NCBI RefSeq assembly: GCF_003600895.1
Contig: NZ_QYRP01000002.1
Coordinates: 372,001 to 436,000 of the forward strand
DNA: 64,000 bases
From: Nocardioides cavernaquae
GTDB taxonomy: Bacteria; Actinomycetota; Actinomycetes; Propionibacteriales; Nocardioidaceae
Direction: 5' to 3'
Each line of letters opens with the position of its first letter. Positions within the stretch are counted from its first letter, which is position 1. Of the stretch, positions 1,130 through 11,019 are shown in pieces. The notes under the pieces were generated by a model. That model saw only the letters and a program-made list of their open reading frames with translations. It was not told the origin of the DNA and searched no databases. The translations under genes and the position numbers were made by a program.

Positions 1130-2812
<1,683 letters not shown>

Positions 2813-2903
2813 GCCCCGAAGGATAGTGGGGCCGCGGGGCCGCGCCGCCCACGGCCCCGCGCCCCGGACGGCCCTGCCTCGGACAGCCCCGGACAGCCCT
2901 GAC

Positions 2904-3395
2904 TCAGAACGGCGCCGGCTCCGCCACGGCCTCCTCGAGGAAGCGCCCGTCACTGGTGACCTGGCCGCCCGCGCCCTCCAGCGCCGCGTTGGCCTCGGCG
3001 ATCGCCTGCTCCTCCACCGACGAGGTCGCCGACGACGCCGCGGTCTTGATGAAGGCCGCGTCCCCCTTGGTCAGGTCGTGGCCGATCGTGAGCGCGTCGA
3101 GCACCATTGTCGTGCGCGCGATCCCGGCATCGTCCTTCCATGCCTGCGCCCGCAGGCGGCCGTGGACGATGACCGGCTCGCTCTGGTGCACCGAGGTCAT
3201 CACGTGCTGCGCCAGCGCCCGCCAGGCGTTGACGGTGAACCAGTTGGTCTCGCGGTCGGCCCAGGTGTTCTCCCTCGGGCGGAAGACGCGAGGCGTCGAG
3301 GCCAGCCGGAAGGTGGCCACCGACGTCTCCCCCACCGAGTGCTCCGTCGGGTCGGTGCCCACATAGCCCAGCACCGTCACAGTCGTCTCGTTCAT
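2904..3395 (-). CDS. ssb: Single-stranded DNA-binding protein, second-copy type
   Basis: 163 residues with an OB fold at the N-terminus (TTVTVLGYVGTDP, ATFRLASTPR, NWFTVNAW, PVIVHGRLRAQAW). After the OB fold the linker is short, without the Gly/Gln-rich stretch of main SSBs. The end EPAPF keeps only the terminal Pro-Phe of the usual acidic tip, preceded by a mildly acidic FLEEAVAE. This looks like a paralogue of the housekeeping SSB, perhaps used in repair or recombination (inference). ATG 3395 is chosen over an upstream ATG at 3413 because GAGGAG sits 7 bases before it. The gene stands alone, between ettA and the betaine-transport operon terminator. Confidence 0.9.
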   Translation of the reverse strand: MNETTVTVLGYVGTDPTEHSVGETSVATFRLASTPRVFRPRENTWADRETNWFTVNAWRALAQHVMTSVHQSEPVIVHGRLRAQAWKDDAGIARTTMVLDALTIGHDLTKGDAAFIKTAASSATSSVEEQAIAEANAALEGAGGQVTSDGRFLEEAVAEPAPF

Positions 3396-3536
3396 GGTGT
3401 TGCTCCTCATCACAGTCGCGCTCGCGCACCCAGCGTCCGCGAACTGACTCCACCGTCCCGGTCGGCAGCCGCCGCCAACCCGGCGAGTCGACAGCGCTGG
3501 GGACGAGCGCCCCGCGAAACAGCCTGTGGACGCAAA

Positions 3537-3572
3537 ACGGCCCGGATCCCCGCGAGGGAAGATCCGGGCCGT
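3537..3572 (-). terminator. Intrinsic terminator of the CDO-rhodanese-ABC operon
   Basis: A perfect 12-base-pair stem (ACGGCCCGGATC with GATCCGGGCCGT) and a 12-base loop lie just after the substrate-binding-protein stop. On the minus strand the stem is followed by TTTTG, so this is a rho-independent terminator closing the operon. Confidence 0.85.
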
Positions 3573-3587
3573 CGTACGACCCGGAGA

Positions 3588-4502
3588 TCAGGCGAAGCCG
3601 TTTGCCTTCAGCCACTGCTCCGCGACCTTGGCCGCGCTCGGCTTCGACGGCCCCGCAAGGGCAGTGTTCAGCTCGAGCAACGCCTCGGTGGTCAGCTTCT
3701 CCGAGACCTCGTCGAGCACCGCAGCGACCTTCTCCGAGGTGGCGTCCTCACGGATCAGCGGGACCACGTTCTGGGCCGCGATCAGGTTCTTCGGGTCCTC
3801 GAGGGTCACCAGGTTGTTGGCCGCGATGGACGGCGTCGTGGAGTAGATGTCGGCGACGTCGACCTTGCCCGAGGTGAGCGCCTTGAGCGTCGCCGGGCCG
3901 CCGCCGTCCGAGATCGCGGTGAAGGCGATGTCAGTGATGCCGTAGAGCTTCTCGAGGCCGGGGATGCCGTAGGCCCGGGTCTTGAACTCCGGGTTGGCGG
4001 CCAGCTTCAGCCCGTCCACCTCGGCCAGGTCAGCGATCGAGGTGACGTCGTGCTCCTTCGCGAACGCAGCCGTCACGTTGAGGGAGTCCTTGTCCTCAGC
4101 CGCCGACGGCTCGAGGATGTCGAGCCCCTTCGGCAGGGCCGCCTCCAGCGCCTTGTTGACCTCGTCGGGGGCAGTGGCGGTCGCGTTCGGGTCGAGGAAG
4201 AGCAGGAGGTTGCCGGTGTACTCCGGGAAGAGGTCGATGGACCCCTCCTTGATCGCGCCGATGTAGGCCTCCCGCTGGTCGATGTCCAGCCGCGTCGTCG
4301 CCTCGATGCCGTCCGCGTTCAACGCGCCCGCATAGATCTCGGCCAGGATCTCGCTCTCGCCGAACGCCGCCGAGCCGACCACGATCGCGTCGCCCTTGCT
4401 GTCCCCGTCGGAGCCCGCCTTCGTCGGGTCACCACCGCACGCCGCGAGGCCCACTCCGAGTGCTGCCGCCAGGAATCCGGCGAGGATCGGGTTGGTGTTC
4501 AT
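3588..4502 (-). CDS. Betaine/osmoprotectant-type ABC transporter substrate-binding lipoprotein
   Basis: 304 residues of the OpuBC/ProX/OsmF family. An N-terminal signal (ILAGFLAAALGVGLAACGG) has a lipobox cysteine at residue 22. The body keeps family landmarks: GESEILAEIYAGAL, IDLFPEYTGN, and a second lobe with AANPEFKTRAYGIPGL. The protein would sit on the outer membrane face and feed a quaternary-amine ligand to the permeases. It starts at ATG 4502 behind AAGGAG. It is the last gene of an operon headed by cysteine dioxygenase and rhodanese, so a sulfur-containing betaine is a possible ligand (inference). Glycine betaine, choline or carnitine remain the default guesses. Confidence 0.9.
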   Translation of the reverse strand: MNTNPILAGFLAAALGVGLAACGGDPTKAGSDGDSKGDAIVVGSAAFGESEILAEIYAGALNADGIEATTRLDIDQREAYIGAIKEGSIDLFPEYTGNLLLFLDPNATATAPDEVNKALEAALPKGLDILEPSAAEDKDSLNVTAAFAKEHDVTSIADLAEVDGLKLAANPEFKTRAYGIPGLEKLYGITDIAFTAISDGGGPATLKALTSGKVDVADIYSTTPSIAANNLVTLEDPKNLIAAQNVVPLIREDATSEKVAAVLDEVSEKLTTEALLELNTALAGPSKPSAAKVAEQWLKANGFA

Positions 4503-4524
4503 GGTTCTTCTCCTTCGATGGGTC

Positions 4525-5181
4525 TCAGGCCGCACGCACGGCCAGACGTTGCACAACGGCGAATGCGCCGTCCAGGACCAGCGCCAGCAGCACGACCACC
4601 AGCGAGCCCGACAGGGTCTGGGGGTAGTCGCGGACAGCGACGCCGTCGATCAGGTAGCGGCCGAGCCCACCCAGCCCGATGTACGCCGCGATGGTCGCGG
4701 TTGCCACGACCTGCAGCACGGCGGACCGGACGCCACCGAGGATCAGCGGGAGGGCCAGCGGCACCTCGACGCGAGCGAGCACCTGCCACTCGGTCATCCC
4801 CTGGGCACGCGCGGCGTCGACGGTGCGTCGGTCGACCGCCTCGATGCCTGCGTAGGCACCGGCGAGCAGGGGCGGGATGGCGAGCACGACGAGCGCCACG
4901 ATCGGGGCGGTCAGTCCGATGCCGACCCAGAGCACCGCCAGGGTCAGCAGCCCGAGGGTCGGCAGGGCACGCACTGCGCCGGTCAGCGCGATCGCGAACC
5001 CACGGAAGCGTCCGGTGTGACCGATCCAGAGCCCGAGCGGGAGCGCGACGACGCTGGCGATGGCGACAGTGAGCGCGGAATAGCCCACGTGCTCCAGCAG
5101 CCGGTGCGGGATGCCGTCCACGCCACTCCAGTGGACAGGGTCGGCCAGCCAGTCCGCGGCCTCCACGAAGACGCTGCTCAT
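4525..5181 (-). CDS. Betaine-type ABC transporter permease (second permease)
   Basis: 218 residues with about five to six hydrophobic segments and the inner-membrane component loop (EAVDRRTVDAARAQGMTEWQ…VEVPLALPLILGG) that docks the ATPase. It belongs to the OpuBB/OpuCB/YehW permease family. Start ATG 5181 overlaps the stop of the preceding permease gene in an ATGA, indicating translational coupling. Two distinct permeases with one ATPase and one binding protein is the OpuC or OsmU layout. The DNA stays strongly G/C-rich at third positions and shows no sign of transfer. Confidence 0.92.
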   Translation of the reverse strand: MSSVFVEAADWLADPVHWSGVDGIPHRLLEHVGYSALTVAIASVVALPLGLWIGHTGRFRGFAIALTGAVRALPTLGLLTLAVLWVGIGLTAPIVALVVLAIPPLLAGAYAGIEAVDRRTVDAARAQGMTEWQVLARVEVPLALPLILGGVRSAVLQVVATATIAAYIGLGGLGRYLIDGVAVRDYPQTLSGSLVVVLLALVLDGAFAVVQRLAVRAA

Positions 5182-5825
5182 GCCGCGCGCCCCGTCTTCG
5201 TCGACCAGGGCAGCAGGATCCGCCCGAGAAGCACCCACAACCCGTCGAGGAGCAAGGCGATCGCGACGACGGCCAGCACTCCGATCACGATCTCCGTGGT
5301 GAAGTCGCGCCGGAAGCCGTCGGTGAAGAGCGAGCCCAGGTTCGTCACACCGATGATGGCGCCGACCGTGACCAGGCTGACGGTGCTGACCGAGACGACG
5401 CGCACCCCGGCGAGCAGCACCGGCCCGGCCAACGGCAGCTCGACCCGCACCACACGCTGGAGGCCGGAGTGGCCGTTGGCCGTCGCCGCATCGAGTACGT
5501 CGGGTGGCAGCTGCGCGAAGGCATCAGCCGCGGTCCGCACGAGCAGGGCCACGGCGTACAGGGTCAGGACGACGACCACGTTGACCGGGTCGAGGAAGCT
5601 CGTGCCGAGGATGCCCGGGAGGATCACCAGGAGCGGCAGCGACGGCAACGAGTAGAGGATGCCGCCCGAGCCGAGGACCAGGGCGCGCCAACGGGAGTGC
5701 CGCTGTGCCCACCACCCGACCGGCACTGCGATCACGAAGCCCAGCACGACCGGCACGATGCTCAGCCACAGGTGCGTCAGCGCCAGGTCGCGGATGTGGG
5801 AGAAGTTGTCGAGGAACCAGGTCAT
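5178..5825 (-). CDS. Betaine-type ABC transporter permease (first permease)
   Basis: 215 residues and about six membrane segments, starting MTWFLDNFSHIRDLALTHLW, typical of OpuC-like permeases. The coupling loop is PPDVLDAATANGHSGLQRVVRVELPLAGPV. It would pair with the downstream permease in the membrane. Start ATG 5825 overlaps the ATPase stop (ATGA), and its own stop overlaps the next start in the same way. The frame is open much further upstream, but that part is arginine-rich shadow sequence of the ATPase gene. Confidence 0.92.
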   Translation of the reverse strand: MTWFLDNFSHIRDLALTHLWLSIVPVVLGFVIAVPVGWWAQRHSRWRALVLGSGGILYSLPSLPLLVILPGILGTSFLDPVNVVVVLTLYAVALLVRTAADAFAQLPPDVLDAATANGHSGLQRVVRVELPLAGPVLLAGVRVVSVSTVSLVTVGAIIGVTNLGSLFTDGFRRDFTTEIVIGVLAVVAIALLLDGLWVLLGRILLPWSTKTGRAA

Positions 5826-6631
5826 GCGAGGACGCCCGCGGCCCGGCCCTCGCCGTCGACGACGATGCGCTGTCCGTCGACCTCCTGGATCCGCAGCGTG
5901 CGCCGGCCCTTGTCGAGCCCGACGAAGCTGCGCACGAAGTCGTCGGCCGGAGCCGCGAGGATCTCGGCCGGCGTGCCGACCTGGGCCACCTCGCCGCCCT
6001 TGCGCAGGATCACGACCTGGTCGCCGAGCAGGAAGGCCTCGTCGATGTCGTGGGTGACGAAGACGATGGTCTTGCCGAGCTCGCGCTGGAGGCGGAGCAG
6101 CTCCTGCTGGAGGTCGTCGCGCACGATCGGGTCGACCGCGCCGAACGGCTCGTCCATCAGCAGGATGTTCGGGTCGGCGACCAGGCCACGCGCGACACCG
6201 ACGCGCTGCTGCTGGCCGCCGGAGAGCTGCCGCGGATACTTCTCCGCCAGCGCAGCATCGAGCCCGACCTTCTCCAGCGCGTCGAGCGCACGCGTCCGGG
6301 CCTCTGCCCGGGGCACCCCCACGAGCCGCAGCGGCACCGCGACGTTGTCGACCACCCGGCGGTGCGGGAGCAGTCCGGCGTGCTGCATGACGTAGCCGAT
6401 GCTGCGGCGCAGGTCGACCGGGTTGCGCGTCGCCACGTCGACGTCGTCGATCAGGACCTGGCCAGCGGACGGATCGACCATGCGGTTGACCATGCGCAGC
6501 AGCGTCGTCTTGCCGCAGCCGGACGAGCCGACGAGGACGGTGGTGGTGTGCGACGGCAGCACGAGGCTGAAGTCGCCGACCGCGGGAGTGCCGTCCGCGA
6601 AGGTCTTGCCGACGTTGCGGTACTCGATCAC
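5822..6631 (-). CDS. Betaine-type ABC transporter ATP-binding protein
   Basis: 269 residues. Walker A is GSSGCGKTT (about residues 35-43), the Q-loop region is YVMQHAGLLPHRRVVDN, the signature LSGGQQQRV, and Walker B LLMDEPFGAVDP. The region after the ATPase core (from about residue 235) is too short for the paired CBS domains found in many OpuCA proteins, so gating by ionic strength through CBS is unlikely. The start is GTG 6631, overlapping the rhodanese stop (GTGA). The ATPase powers the two permeases encoded just downstream. Confidence 0.93.
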   Translation of the reverse strand: MIEYRNVGKTFADGTPAVGDFSLVLPSHTTTVLVGSSGCGKTTLLRMVNRMVDPSAGQVLIDDVDVATRNPVDLRRSIGYVMQHAGLLPHRRVVDNVAVPLRLVGVPRAEARTRALDALEKVGLDAALAEKYPRQLSGGQQQRVGVARGLVADPNILLMDEPFGAVDPIVRDDLQQELLRLQRELGKTIVFVTHDIDEAFLLGDQVVILRKGGEVAQVGTPAEILAAPADDFVRSFVGLDKGRRTLRIQEVDGQRIVVDGEGRAAGVLA

Positions 6632-7056
6632 TCGCTCGGCCCCTCGACGACGTGCTCGACCGCTGTGCCACCGGCGACGACGGGCAGACCGGCGGCCTGC
6701 CAGGCACGGATGCCACCGATCACGTCGGTGGCGGGGATCCCCAGCGAGACCAGCGATGCCGCCGCCAGCGACGAGGTGTAGCCCTCGGTGCAGTAGACGA
6801 CCCACTCCTGGCCCTCGACCGCGTCCGCGAGGCGCGCATCCGAGCCCGGGTGCAGGCGCCACTCGAGGTGGTTGCGCTCGACGACGACGGCACCGGGGAT
6901 CTCCCCGTCGGCGCGCCGCTGCCACTCGGGTCGGATGTCGACGAGCCTGGCCCCGCGGCGTACGGCGTCGCGCGCGGCCTCGGGAGAGAGCCGCTCCAGG
7001 CGGGCGCGGGCGGCCTCGAGGAGCTCGTCCACCGAGGCGAACTCAGGCACGCTCAC
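6628..7056 (-). CDS. Rhodanese-like domain protein
   Basis: 142 residues forming one rhodanese fold. The N-terminal half has LSPEAARDAVRRGARLVDIRP and the active loop is CTEGYTSS, with the sulfur-carrying cysteine at about residue 89. A small loop of this kind fits a single-domain sulfurtransferase. It would accept sulfane sulfur (persulfide) and pass it on in the cytoplasm. Start GTG 7056 overlaps the cysteine dioxygenase stop (GTGA), so the two are translated together. The pairing suggests a shared role in disposing of cysteine or persulfide sulfur (inference). Confidence 0.9.
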   Translation of the reverse strand: MSVPEFASVDELLEAARARLERLSPEAARDAVRRGARLVDIRPEWQRRADGEIPGAVVVERNHLEWRLHPGSDARLADAVEGQEWVVYCTEGYTSSLAAASLVSLGIPATDVIGGIRAWQAAGLPVVAGGTAVEHVVEGPSE

Positions 7057-7562
7057 GACGCGAGTCGATCCGGCGCCGGGGCCTCGGGGTCGTCGGTCCA
7101 GGCGGCCGCGCGCTGCACCAGCCGGCCCGAGTCCACGTCGTAGAAGTGCATCAACGACAACGGCGGCGAGTAGGCGTGGACGCTGACAGCGGTCTCGGGG
7201 TGGAGGTTGCGCACATCGTGAACGTATCGGCTGCCGAATACAACCGTCTCCCCCGACGCGCGGACGACGTCGACCAGGCTGCCGCCCTCGGCACGACCGC
7301 TCCACGCCACCTCGGTCAGCTGCCCCTCGACGACGGTGTAGGCACCGGCAGAGCCACCGTGGTCGTGCAGTTCCGTGCCCTGGTCCTCGGTCCAGCTGAT
7401 CAGCCAGACGTCGACCTGCTCGTCACAGTGCACCCGGACGTGCCAGCGCTCGGAGGCGTCGGCGTGGATCTCGTGCTTGCCCTCCCGGACCTCCGCGGCG
7501 ATGCGGTGGGTCCAGGCGGTGAGCTCGTCCAGGGTGAGCGAAGGAGACGTGCCGGGGTTCAT
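7053..7562 (-). CDS. Cysteine dioxygenase family protein
   Basis: 169 residues with a cupin fold. Iron ligands are visible as H66 and H68 (TELHDHGGSAGA) and a third histidine near 115 (SRYVHDVRN). The family oxidises the thiol of cysteine, or of a similar thiol such as 3-mercaptopropionate, to a sulfinic acid with O2. It is the first gene of a six-gene operon with rhodanese and a betaine-type importer. ATG 7562 lies 6 bases after TAAGGT, with no ribosome site, so the operon mRNA is probably leaderless. The exact thiol substrate is not fixed by sequence. Confidence 0.9.
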   Translation of the reverse strand: MNPGTSPSLTLDELTAWTHRIAAEVREGKHEIHADASERWHVRVHCDEQVDVWLISWTEDQGTELHDHGGSAGAYTVVEGQLTEVAWSGRAEGGSLVDVVRASGETVVFGSRYVHDVRNLHPETAVSVHAYSPPLSLMHFYDVDSGRLVQRAAAWTDDPEAPAPDRLAS

Positions 7563-7618
7563 GCCCCGACCTTAACCCAACTAAATCACTCGACAAACTC
7601 GAATTGCCGAGACGGTGC

Positions 7619-9271
7619 TCACTTCAGGACGGTTGTCAGCTGCTCCCGCACGGTTGAGTACGACGCGAGCTCCACCTGCAACGGCGCGAGCACGAGCTCC
7701 TGCGCGACCGCGTTGATCCCGGACCGGAGCCGGCGATCGGCGGCACGAGCCCGCGAACGGGCGGTGATCCCGACCAGCACCTTGCAGAGCAGCGCGAGCA
7801 CGATGCCCCCGAGGATGCCGCCGCCGAGGAACAGCGTCGGCAGTGCGACAGGGCCCACCTTCGGCGACGGCACGTCGAACTGCAGGTAGCCCACCAGCGC
7901 GAGCGCGCCGAGCCACAAGCCACCGACGACCGCGGCGACGATCAGCAGCCACTGCAGCAGCCGGACCAGCGAGGCCCACCACGGCAGACGGTCGACACCG
8001 AGGTCGGTGGCGGCGAGCGTGTGGTCGAGCCGGTCATTCAGCTCGTCGAGGCGACCCGTCGCGGCGGAGCGCAGGGCCAGCTGCCACGGGCGGGCGAGGC
8101 CGAGCCCGACCTGGTCCGTCGCGGCACGCACAGCCGAGTCGACACGCGCGCGCTGCACGGGCGAGGCCTCGGGGAGAGACGTGCGCGAGGTCTTGACCAG
8201 CGCCTTGCCCTCACGCCCCAGGTCGAGGTGCAGCCGCTTGAGCGGGTCGGGCTTGAGCTTGGTGACCCACGCGGTGACCGGCCAGCCGGTCGCGCGGGCA
8301 GCGCGCTGCTGCGCGGAGGTCTCGACGGCGTGGACCACGACGGGCACGCCCGCGGCATCCGCCAGCGCGTCATCGAGCTCAGCGATGACCTCGCGGTCGA
8401 GCGAGCCGGCCGGAGTCAGGCCGGAGACGTCGGCGATGCGCTCGCCGGCAGCCTTCACGTCCGCCTCGAGCCGCATGCGGGCAGCCTTCTTGGAGGCGAC
8501 CCGCTTGCCGAGCTCCTTGCGGAGGGCGTCGAGGTTGGTGCCGTTGCGGGCACTGACCGCGAAGACGGGCACGTCCGGCAGGCCGTCGGCCGCGAGCAGG
8601 CGGCGTACGTCGGCGATCATCGCCTCGCGCCGGTCCTCCGCGACGGTGTCGATGTGGTTGAGCACCACGACCATCGTCTTGGCGTGCGAGGCCATCGGCT
8701 TCAGGTAGCGGTTGTGGATCGCCGCGTCGGCGTACTTCTGCGGGTCGAGCACCCACACGAGGACGTCGGCGAGCTGCACGAGGCGGTCGGCCTCGAGGTG
8801 GTGCGAGACGTCGGTGGAGTCGTGGTCGGGCAGATCGAGGAGGACCACGCCGTCGAACGCCTCGTCGGCGCGGCTGGAGTCGAGCATCGAGTCACGGGTG
8901 ACGTGGTGGCGTGGCGGGATGCCGAGCCAGGTCAGCAGCTCGGCCGCGCCGTCGCTCCCCCACACGCAGGCCGTCGCCCACGAGGTGGTCGGACGGCGTA
9001 CGCCGACGGCGCTGAGCTCGAGGCCGGTCAATGCGTTGAACGTCGACGACTTGCCCGAGCCGGTGGCACCGGCGAGGCCGATGACGGTGTGCTTGGCAGA
9101 GAGTCGGAGGCGTTCGCTGACGCGGCTCGAGACCGCGTGGGCGTCGTCGAGCAGCTGGTCGTCGAGCCTGCCACGAGCGGCCTCGACGGCGGCGTCGAGC
9201 GCCTCCGCCTTGCGGCCCACGTCCGAGCCGGAGGTGACCAGCTTCTTCGCACCTTCGAGAATCGTGCTCAT
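7619..9271 (-). CDS. Dynamin-like membrane GTPase, second of a pair
   Basis: 550 residues. The P-loop is GATGSGKSS (about 68-76), a switch-II-like motif is LLDLPDHDS, and the base-recognition motif is VLNHID. A long helical middle follows. Two hydrophobic segments near residues 425-460 and 470-497 (LLIVAAVVGGLWLGALALVGYL; LFLGGGILGGIVLALLC) anchor it in the membrane. The start ATG 9271 shares one base with the stop of the partner GTPase (TGATG), so the two are coupled. Paired bacterial dynamins (Streptomyces DynA/DynB, mycobacterial IniA/IniC) remodel membranes in division or stress. Orthology to either is not shown here. Confidence 0.8.
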   Translation of the reverse strand: MSTILEGAKKLVTSGSDVGRKAEALDAAVEAARGRLDDQLLDDAHAVSSRVSERLRLSAKHTVIGLAGATGSGKSSTFNALTGLELSAVGVRRPTTSWATACVWGSDGAAELLTWLGIPPRHHVTRDSMLDSSRADEAFDGVVLLDLPDHDSTDVSHHLEADRLVQLADVLVWVLDPQKYADAAIHNRYLKPMASHAKTMVVVLNHIDTVAEDRREAMIADVRRLLAADGLPDVPVFAVSARNGTNLDALRKELGKRVASKKAARMRLEADVKAAGERIADVSGLTPAGSLDREVIAELDDALADAAGVPVVVHAVETSAQQRAARATGWPVTAWVTKLKPDPLKRLHLDLGREGKALVKTSRTSLPEASPVQRARVDSAVRAATDQVGLGLARPWQLALRSAATGRLDELNDRLDHTLAATDLGVDRLPWWASLVRLLQWLLIVAAVVGGLWLGALALVGYLQFDVPSPKVGPVALPTLFLGGGILGGIVLALLCKVLVGITARSRARAADRRLRSGINAVAQELVLAPLQVELASYSTVREQLTTVLK

Positions 9272-11019
9272 CAATCGCTCCCCATGGAAAGTGCGTTGTC
9301 CTGCCCCGACTGCCCCGACTGCTGTGCGGCAAAGCGAAGGTCGTCGACACGTCGCGCAGCGGCGCGGAGCAGCTCCGGGCTGCGCGGGTCGACACCGAGA
9401 TCGTCCAGAACCGTGCTGAACCGGGCGCGCTCGCCCGCGAAGAGCTCGTCGACGCGGCGCTCGAGGTCCTTGCGGGCACGATCGGCGAGGCTGCGCACAG
9501 CCTGGTCACCGAAGACCGCCTCGAGGAGCTTCTGACCGAGCACCGCGCTGCCGCCGGCGATGCCGACCTCGGCGCCGACGAGGCCACCGGTCGAGGCGAA
9601 GGTCACGACCATCAGCGAGACGGCCAGGCCGTTGACGCCGTAGGCCAGGAAGCGCGCTGAGGAGCGCTTGTCGGCACCCTCGGTGCGGACCATCTCGAGG
9701 ACGCCCTGCTGCCAGTCGCGGACCAGCTTCTCTGCCTTGCGGCGGAAGTCGCGGGAGGCGCGGTCGATGTCGTGGTGCGACTCGAGCAGAACCCGACCGG
9801 CCGGACGCGCGTGCCACGCGGCGGCGGCGCGCTCGGCGGCGTTCTCGGCGTGCTCGAGGAGCAGCTTCTCCAGGCCCGACTCGACGGCGTGGGTGACCCG
9901 CTCGACCTGCTGGGGCTTGCCCTTGACCGAGTTGACCAGCCGGTCACGGATGGCGCCGACCTTGGTCTCGAGGGTCTTGAGCAGCTCGCCGGTGCCGACG
10001 AACTCCTGCCAGCGGGCGAGCACCTCGCCGCGCAGCAGCGTGCCATCGGCGGTCGCGGTGCGGATGTCGCCCAGCGCGCCGGCGTACGCCCGGAACGCGT
10101 CGTCGCGGAGCTGGTCGACCGTCTCGGCCTGCTCGCCGACCGCGGTCGCGACCTGGAAGGTCTTGGCGCCGATGACGCGGATCGCGCCCTCGAGGGTCTG
10201 CTTGACCACCGCGGAGCGCGCGTCGGCGTCCGCCGCCAGCGCGTCCAGCCAGCCGCGGATGTCGGCGACCAGCTCAGGAGGGAGTACGCCGTCAGCGTCG
10301 GGCGTGCCCTCGCGGACCACGAAGAGCGGAGAGTCCTTCAGGCCACGGCTGGCCAGCATGCGGGCCAGGTGGGTCGACACGGTCTCGACGGCTTCGTCGG
10401 GGGTGCGGTCGAGCACGATCGCGACCGAGGTCGAGCGCTCGGCGGCACGCTTGAGGTACTCCCACGGGACCTGGTCGGCGTAGCGCGCGGCACTGGTGAC
10501 GAAGAGCCAGAGGTCTCCAGCCGCGAGCAGCTGCGAGGCGAGGACCCGGTTGGCCTCCTCGACGGAGTCCACGTCGGGAGCGTCGAGGATGGCCAGGCCC
10601 ATGGGCACCTTGTCGGTGGCGACGAGCTGGAGCGTCGAGGTGTCGCCCGTGGCGCGGTCCGAGCGGACCAGGTCGGGCAGGATCCGGTCCTGGCCGAACC
10701 ACTCGGCATCGCCGGGGTTGTGCACCAGGACGGGCGAGCGCGTCGTCGGACGCAGCACGCCGGGCTCGGTGACCCGGTGGCCGACCAGCGAGTTGACCAG
10801 GGTCGACTTGCCGGCACCGGTCGATCCGCCCACGACGGTCAGCAGTGGACCGTCGATCGTCGTGAGGCGCGGGATGACGTAGTCCTCGAGCTGGTCGATC
10901 ATGTCCGCGCGGGAGGACCGCTCGGGCTCGACACCCGGAAGGTCCAGTGGGAGCGCAGCATTCTGGAGCGCCCCCCGGAGGCGCACCAGGGCGGTGAGCA
11001 TCTTCGTGGAGTCACTCAT
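9271..11019 (-). CDS. Dynamin-like membrane GTPase, first of a pair
   Basis: 582 residues. The P-loop is GGSTGAGKST (about 64-73), followed by a switch region LRPTTRSPVLVHN and LAILDAPDVDS near 145-152. A standard NKxD is not clear; VLDRTPDE may take its place. Helical stalk segments follow, then a hydrophobic hairpin near 445-490 (GVNGLAVSLMVVTF … GLVGAEVGIAGG) that could insert into the membrane. It starts at ATG 11019, overlapping the PrsW stop by four bases, and ends in the start of the second GTPase. The tandem arrangement suggests a hetero-oligomeric remodelling machine (inference). Confidence 0.8.
   Translation of the reverse strand: MSDSTKMLTALVRLRGALQNAALPLDLPGVEPERSSRADMIDQLEDYVIPRLTTIDGPLLTVVGGSTGAGKSTLVNSLVGHRVTEPGVLRPTTRSPVLVHNPGDAEWFGQDRILPDLVRSDRATGDTSTLQLVATDKVPMGLAILDAPDVDSVEEANRVLASQLLAAGDLWLFVTSAARYADQVPWEYLKRAAERSTSVAIVLDRTPDEAVETVSTHLARMLASRGLKDSPLFVVREGTPDADGVLPPELVADIRGWLDALAADADARSAVVKQTLEGAIRVIGAKTFQVATAVGEQAETVDQLRDDAFRAYAGALGDIRTATADGTLLRGEVLARWQEFVGTGELLKTLETKVGAIRDRLVNSVKGKPQQVERVTHAVESGLEKLLLEHAENAAERAAAAWHARPAGRVLLESHHDIDRASRDFRRKAEKLVRDWQQGVLEMVRTEGADKRSSARFLAYGVNGLAVSLMVVTFASTGGLVGAEVGIAGGSAVLGQKLLEAVFGDQAVRSLADRARKDLERRVDELFAGERARFSTVLDDLGVDPRSPELLRAAARRVDDLRFAAQQSGQSGQDNALSMGSD

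Follow-up and report, generated by a model that had tools for sequence, protein, structure and literature searches.

A conserved thiol dioxygenase-rhodanese-importer operon in Nocardioidaceae, with a tentative role in taking up and oxidizing a small organosulfur compound

A cysteine dioxygenase (CDO) homologue clustered with a rhodanese is known from the mercaptosuccinate dioxygenase (Msdo) clusters of Advenella mimigardefordensis and Variovorax paradoxus B4, and the Advenella cluster also includes an ATP-binding cassette (ABC) importer of the PAAT family (PMC5373536). Msdo oxidizes the thiol to a sulfinate, which decomposes to succinate and sulfite, and deletion of the dioxygenase gene in Advenella restricted growth on mercaptosuccinate (PMC5373536). 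Here, we analyzed a 64,000-nucleotide stretch of the Nocardioides cavernaquae genome (GCF_003600895.1, contig NZ_QYRP01000002.1, positions 372,001 to 436,000; hereafter the window), which contains a six-gene operon of a CDO-type enzyme, a rhodanese and a four-gene ABC importer. As in Advenella, a thiol dioxygenase, a rhodanese and an ABC importer lie side by side, and the Advenella cluster is the closest known arrangement. The two differ in that the Msdo cluster has a PAAT importer and a cystathionine beta-lyase, whereas the window has an OpuAC/BPD-type importer and its CDO and rhodanese genes are directly adjacent. In a literature search lacking most subscription journals, we found neither a CDO-rhodanese-OpuAC operon nor an actinobacterial CDO-rhodanese pair described. 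By analogy with the Msdo cluster, the operon may allow a small organosulfur compound to be taken up and used oxidatively; we favor this reading tentatively and place it a little below an even chance.

The operon consists of six consecutive minus-strand genes (7562-3588) and a hairpin behind them:

7053..7562, minus strand: CDO-type thiol dioxygenase (cupin), first gene, 169 amino acids; CDO_I, PF05995
6628..7056, minus strand: single-domain rhodanese (sulfurtransferase), GTG start, 142 amino acids; PF00581, 45.2 bits
5822..6631, minus strand: importer ATPase, GTG start, 269 amino acids; PF00005 (ABC_tran), 114.3 bits
5178..5825, minus strand: importer permease 1; PF00528 (BPD_transp_1), 57.3 bits
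4525..5181, minus strand: importer permease 2; PF00528 (BPD_transp_1), 78.9 bits
3588..4502, minus strand: substrate-binding lipoprotein, OpuAC/F-III fold, 304 amino acids; OpuAC Pfam match
3536..3573, minus strand: probable intrinsic terminator hairpin that closes the operon; 16 pairs, running into four U

All six Pfam assignments exceed their cut-offs. Four junctions are 4-base overlaps (7053-7056, 6628-6631, 5822-5825 and 5178-5181) and the fifth, between permease 2 and the binding protein, is a 22-base gap (4503-4524). The original prediction of six coupled genes is thus confirmed by the sequence and agrees with the Pfam names. It had also described a U-tract terminator, fairly so in view of the stable hairpin and the four U, but the tract is short. 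A 61-nucleotide stretch containing the hairpin folds at -37.8 kcal/mol (z -4.63), and none of 200 shuffles was as stable; a simple terminator scan of 2500-9000, which requires five T in eight, did not list the hairpin at 3573-3536. Rfam gave no match at 3000-8200. For the ATPase, the best NCBIfam match was the ProV subfamily (294 bits, under the cut-off of 327), ABC_tran alone passed the Pfam cut-off, and no CBS domain was reported. The 3.47-Mb genome carries one further CDO gene and an EgtD gene for ergothioneine synthesis, and a second OpuAC-family match was not found in it.

The gene order is conserved well beyond the window. In a family-level CDO search of 198 genomes, proteins of the window type were defined by E ≤ 1.3e-24, which gave 35 genomes including that of the window; the next match beyond this cut (1.9e-23) was only 46% identical. 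Examination of the fetched regions revealed the importer directly behind the CDO-rhodanese pair in 23 of the 34 other Nocardioidaceae genomes with a window-type CDO, and two were left unassigned, one at a contig end (G151) and one with an aberrant arrangement (G169). The original prediction had named the absence of this order in relatives as an argument for chance co-location. Given the same order in relatives, the six-gene arrangement is more than chance. Nocardioides phosphati, the nearest named relative found (identities of 71% for the CDO, 75% for the rhodanese, 87% for the ATPase and 76% for the binding protein), has all six genes in order, as does the second named genome, Aeromicrobium sp. 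9AM (L002), among others. Compared with the gene order, the precise overlaps vary more: among 24 measured relatives, the rhodanese-ATPase junction was about -4 bases in 5 and 7-135 bases in 18 (one value, for L092, is an artefact).

Some of these loci show individual irregularities. In G169 (L098 4139-8078), the cluster is of the usual kind from the CDO through most of the ATPase, but then continues with another permease and an OpuAC protein of only 25% identity; the usual importer is located on a different contig, at its end. Either a rearrangement or an assembly error would account for this. One of the 23 importer-linked genomes (G126) has a damaged-looking CDO, which matches in two separate pieces (L094 5890-6189), together with a rhodanese and an importer that match over their full length. 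In G152, which was counted as unlinked, the rhodanese and importer follow the last part of a CDO only (L103 8104-8292), and an intact CDO-rhodanese pair sits on another contig (L088). Just upstream of the operon, at 7619-11019 of the window, are two adjoining GTPase/dynamin-type genes (551 and 582 amino acids, with a 4-base overlap). This pair precedes the cluster in the window, in N. phosphati (L001), in L068 and in L103, and these four are therefore counted as one lineage. In a second genus (g19, inferred to be Aeromicrobium), the same gene order is set between other genes. Gene calls in these neighborhoods come from a crude, base-composition caller, and names such as GluQ-like and protoporphyrinogen-oxidase-like were read by eye. 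The neighbors at the Aeromicrobium loci (an MMPL protein, a nitroreductase and an alpha/beta hydrolase) show no sulfur theme and were dropped as support.

The two modules were also found to travel together without being obligately tied. Among 49 genomes of genus g19, 24 have both modules and 18 have neither, while the CDO occurs alone in 4 and the importer alone in 3 (one of them G126, with its damaged CDO); the association is strong (Fisher p 1.1e-6), in a count that is uncorrected for kinship and includes some incomplete genomes. A binding-protein tree with 64 rows (70 sequences considered, 6 copies dropped) places all 26 linked proteins within one 33-row clade (96/81). Two of the seven unlinked rows of this clade are at contig ends (L164 and L165); the other five (L159-L163) have the importer without CDO-rhodanese, in flanks that resemble, by eye, those of linked Aeromicrobium loci. 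For the 31 rows outside the clade, no CDO or rhodanese match was present in the fetched surroundings of 8-15 kb. The linked binding proteins thus share common ancestry, with one origin of the linkage and several losses. The earlier proposal that the importer and the thiol enzymes belong together is upheld by the conserved order and by this co-occurrence.

Since either module can be lost alone, mere co-inheritance is a serious rival and a real possibility, though we consider it the less probable explanation. The importer would then carry an unrelated solute (an osmolyte, an aromatic compound or other), CDO and rhodanese would deal with internal cysteine and sulfite, and the operon would be kept for co-regulation or through vertical descent. 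Each module stands alone in several genomes whose flanks are like those of linked loci (a likeness partly judged by eye), the window and the three loci sharing its GTPase pair amount to one lineage, and cage-less relatives of the binding protein exist with no CDO nearby, all of which fit co-inheritance. Joint presence and absence in g19, even though kinship was not corrected for, the same order between other genes in that second genus, and the residues specific to the clade in and next to the ligand site speak against it.

Further evidence comes from the binding protein, whose mapped ligand-site residues are A45, F47, R77, Y95, D137, D139, E172, R176, Y220 and Q244. It has the F-III two-domain fold of the quaternary-ammonium binding proteins OpuBC, OpuCC and AfProX. 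Their four-aromatic cage (F293, Y341, Y419 and Y443 in EgtUC numbering) is missing, with Y95 and Y220 remaining: Tyr341 is replaced by Asp139 and Phe293 by Tyr in all 64 binding proteins, and Y443 by Gln244 in all 33 clade rows. The alignment therefore does not place the protein with the strict choline or glycine-betaine types, a placement that would have counted against the original prediction. A similar case is Mycobacterium tuberculosis ProX (MtProX), also an actinobacterial OpuAC-type binding protein without the conserved aromatic residues, a likeness of published description rather than of compared sequences (PMC5894108). That paper reports polyphenols as ligands (20-70 uM) and no binding of betaine, choline or carnitine, the latter with data not shown there. 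The betaine-type substrate initially suggested is not borne out, given the missing cage and the behavior of the likewise cage-less MtProX, and betaines are unlikely to be what the importer attached to CDO-rhodanese in Nocardioidaceae carries.

These observations also bear on an osmolyte system, in which an OpuC/OsmU-type importer would be combined with a CDO that makes cysteine sulfinate for hypotaurine and taurine as a compatible solute. We consider it improbable: the OpuAC-type fold and the ProV-like ATPase would suit it, as would the reported import of glycine betaine by M. tuberculosis proXVWZ (Price 2008, as cited in PMC5894108), but the quaternary-ammonium cage is absent, no CBS domain was reported on the ATPase, and MtProX reportedly bound none of betaine, choline and carnitine.

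Comparison with the ergothioneine importer EgtU gave a similar picture. The binding protein has its own gene here, whereas in Streptococcus pneumoniae it is a domain of EgtU, and the EgtU aromatic cage, Gly244 and Phe293 described in PMC9732360 are replaced in the window protein. Within the clade, the positions of Gly244 and of the Tyr-to-Phe293 switch are F at position 47 (32/33) and Y at position 95 (33/33), and those of the ligand-carboxylate residues K242 and T296 are Ala at position 45 (31/33) and Asn at position 98 (33/33). E375, which in EgtU contacts the imidazole, and R379, which contacts the carboxylate, are retained as E172 and R176 in all 33 rows. Moreover, S140, N142 and T223, all beside pocket positions, are clade-specific and invariant (33/33), Y220 and Q244 are also present in 33/33 rows, and this pattern suggests a uniform ligand across the clade.

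The first enzyme of the operon is a member of the CDO family (PF05995, 64.9 bits against a cut-off of 23) with a three-His iron site and a Ser-His-Tyr triad; NCBIfam provided no name for it. H66, H68, H115, H129 and Y131 are present in 66 of 66 rows, and position 127 is S in 59 and T in 7. By analogy with CDO, we take His66, His68 and His115 to be the Fe ligands and Ser127-His129-Tyr131 to be the triad. The cysteine carboxylate is bound in rat CDO by Arg60. Candidates for the equivalent of this arginine are R39 and R43; MAFFT aligns rat Arg60 with Val42, and hhalign and HMMER leave the register open. A firm assignment to Arg43, which hairpin reasoning favored, was dropped in view of these alignments.

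The solved ergothioneine dioxygenase of Thermocatellispora tengchongensis, identified as such by the titles of PDB entries 8qfl-8qfr and deposited as 'Cysteine dioxygenase', belongs to a separate clade. A class search gave 105 genomes with a CDO match, from which 20 new regions were fetched. A total of 89 loci were considered for the CDO tree and four left out (L070, identical to L002; L094, L103 and L117, whose matches were too short or contained a stop), all four adjoining a rhodanese; the tree itself has 87 rows. In it, 8qfl groups with 20 Nocardioidaceae proteins (L105 and L178-L196; 100/99, stem 1.29), of which L105 is 63% identical to 8qfl, and the window CDO lies on the opposite side of this branch. 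The two groups are consistently distinguished at ten aligned positions. At position 43, the 21 ergothioneine-dioxygenase rows have S (19) or Q (2), whereas 61 of 66 window-group rows have R; position 116 is R in 21/21 of the former and D in 65/66 of the latter. The genomic context separates them as well: of the fetched loci, 64 of 65 in the window group have a rhodanese immediately behind the CDO, compared with none of 20 ergothioneine-dioxygenase loci. Ergothioneine as the substrate, another early suggestion, is not supported, given the absent EgtU-specific residues and the position of the CDO outside the ergothioneine-dioxygenase clade. Scavenging of ergothioneine by an EgtU-like importer and an ergothioneine dioxygenase was set aside as very improbable: Gly244, Phe293, Lys242, Tyr341 and Tyr443 of EgtU are all replaced, the cage is missing, and the proteins that do group with 8qfl are never found beside a rhodanese in these loci.

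CDO and rhodanese together form a wider unit than the six-gene set. The rhodanese of the window, which exceeds the PF00581 cut-off and has solved relatives in 2hhg, 6mxv and YgaP, carries the active loop CTEGYT with Cys89. Of 64 relatives, 62 have a C-x-E-G-aromatic loop; one exception has Asp for Cys in the aligned stretch, and the pattern did not resolve the other. The rhodanese is likely a working sulfurtransferase.

In two lineages, CDO-rhodanese is near organosulfur acquisition genes. In family f18, seven of eight CDO loci have at least one SsuD-, SfnB-, SsuE-, SsuA- or MetQ-like gene in the fetched stretch, one of them (L108) only a short SsuD piece at a contig end. One f18 locus (L113 3822-13596) contains an SsuE-like reductase, SsuD-like and SfnB genes, CDO, rhodanese, a weak YeiH match, and MetQ-like and SsuA-like genes; there, SfnB is above its curated cut-off, SsuD is below (477 versus 510), and the remaining sulfur genes are well below theirs. 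A second CDO type of the window's genus has sulfur genes at three of six loci (L102, in the window genome, L106 and L107) and none of them at L104, L197 and L198 (the last two being 11-kb stretches). The second CDO of the window genome (L102 8038-8370, contig C2, about 632,040-632,370) has no rhodanese beside it and adjoins a chlorite-dismutase-family gene, with SsuD- and SfnB-like genes about 5-7 kb away. No such sulfur genes were present at the 20 ergothioneine-dioxygenase loci (most of them 11 kb).

Several findings weigh against uptake and oxidation of an organosulfur compound. The CDO-rhodanese pair has no importer behind it in 9 of the 34 genomes, and the importer has no adjoining CDO-rhodanese in G014, G132, G144, G106 and G138. 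The window-type loci have none of the above sulfur genes, save one weak 29% MetQ match (L089), nor were any found around eight f21 loci, three f5 loci and six loci of metagenome-assembled genomes (L003-L008). Among the 11 clade-specific positions of the binding protein, 186, 216, 225, 233, 250 and 295 are distant in sequence from the ligand residues that were mapped, so that plain kinship would give a similar pattern. Unlinked relatives lack the cage to the same extent, and its loss is therefore no sulfur signature. In addition, the binding protein has no close relative with a known ligand.

We still favor the organosulfur reading. CDO and rhodanese would be an actinobacterial pair in which the dioxygenase turns a small thiol into a sulfinate that releases sulfite, and the rhodanese may handle sulfite or sulfane sulfur, a chemistry suggested by the enzyme families and the mercaptosuccinate parallel. 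Linkage of the pair to the four-gene cage-less importer, whose binding protein has conserved charged residues at its ligand site (R77, D139, E172 and R176), presumably arose in an ancestor of these Nocardioidaceae. The importer would most likely take up an organosulfur compound that is small and either charged or zwitterionic, or a precursor of one, and feed the pair for sulfur acquisition; the substrate, the direction of flux and the cooperation of the modules are what we infer here. A bolder version, which we regard as rather unlikely, is that the cage-less 'ProX' importer is dedicated to organosulfur uptake and that the operon is a convergent, betaine-type-importer counterpart of the mercaptosuccinate uptake-and-oxidation cluster.

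By its CDO-rhodanese pairing, this thiol-oxidation unit can be told apart from the enzymes of ergothioneine breakdown, although the two kinds of dioxygenase look alike and score in the same Pfam family. Binding-protein relatives are widespread, with matches at E ≤ 1e-15 in 203 of 296 genomes sampled across the class, and all 64 examined closely are without the betaine cage. The clade tied to a thiol dioxygenase and a rhodanese offers a short, testable list of ligands. If the bolder version is true, it would provide the first physiological role for this orphan class of actinobacterial cage-less importers.

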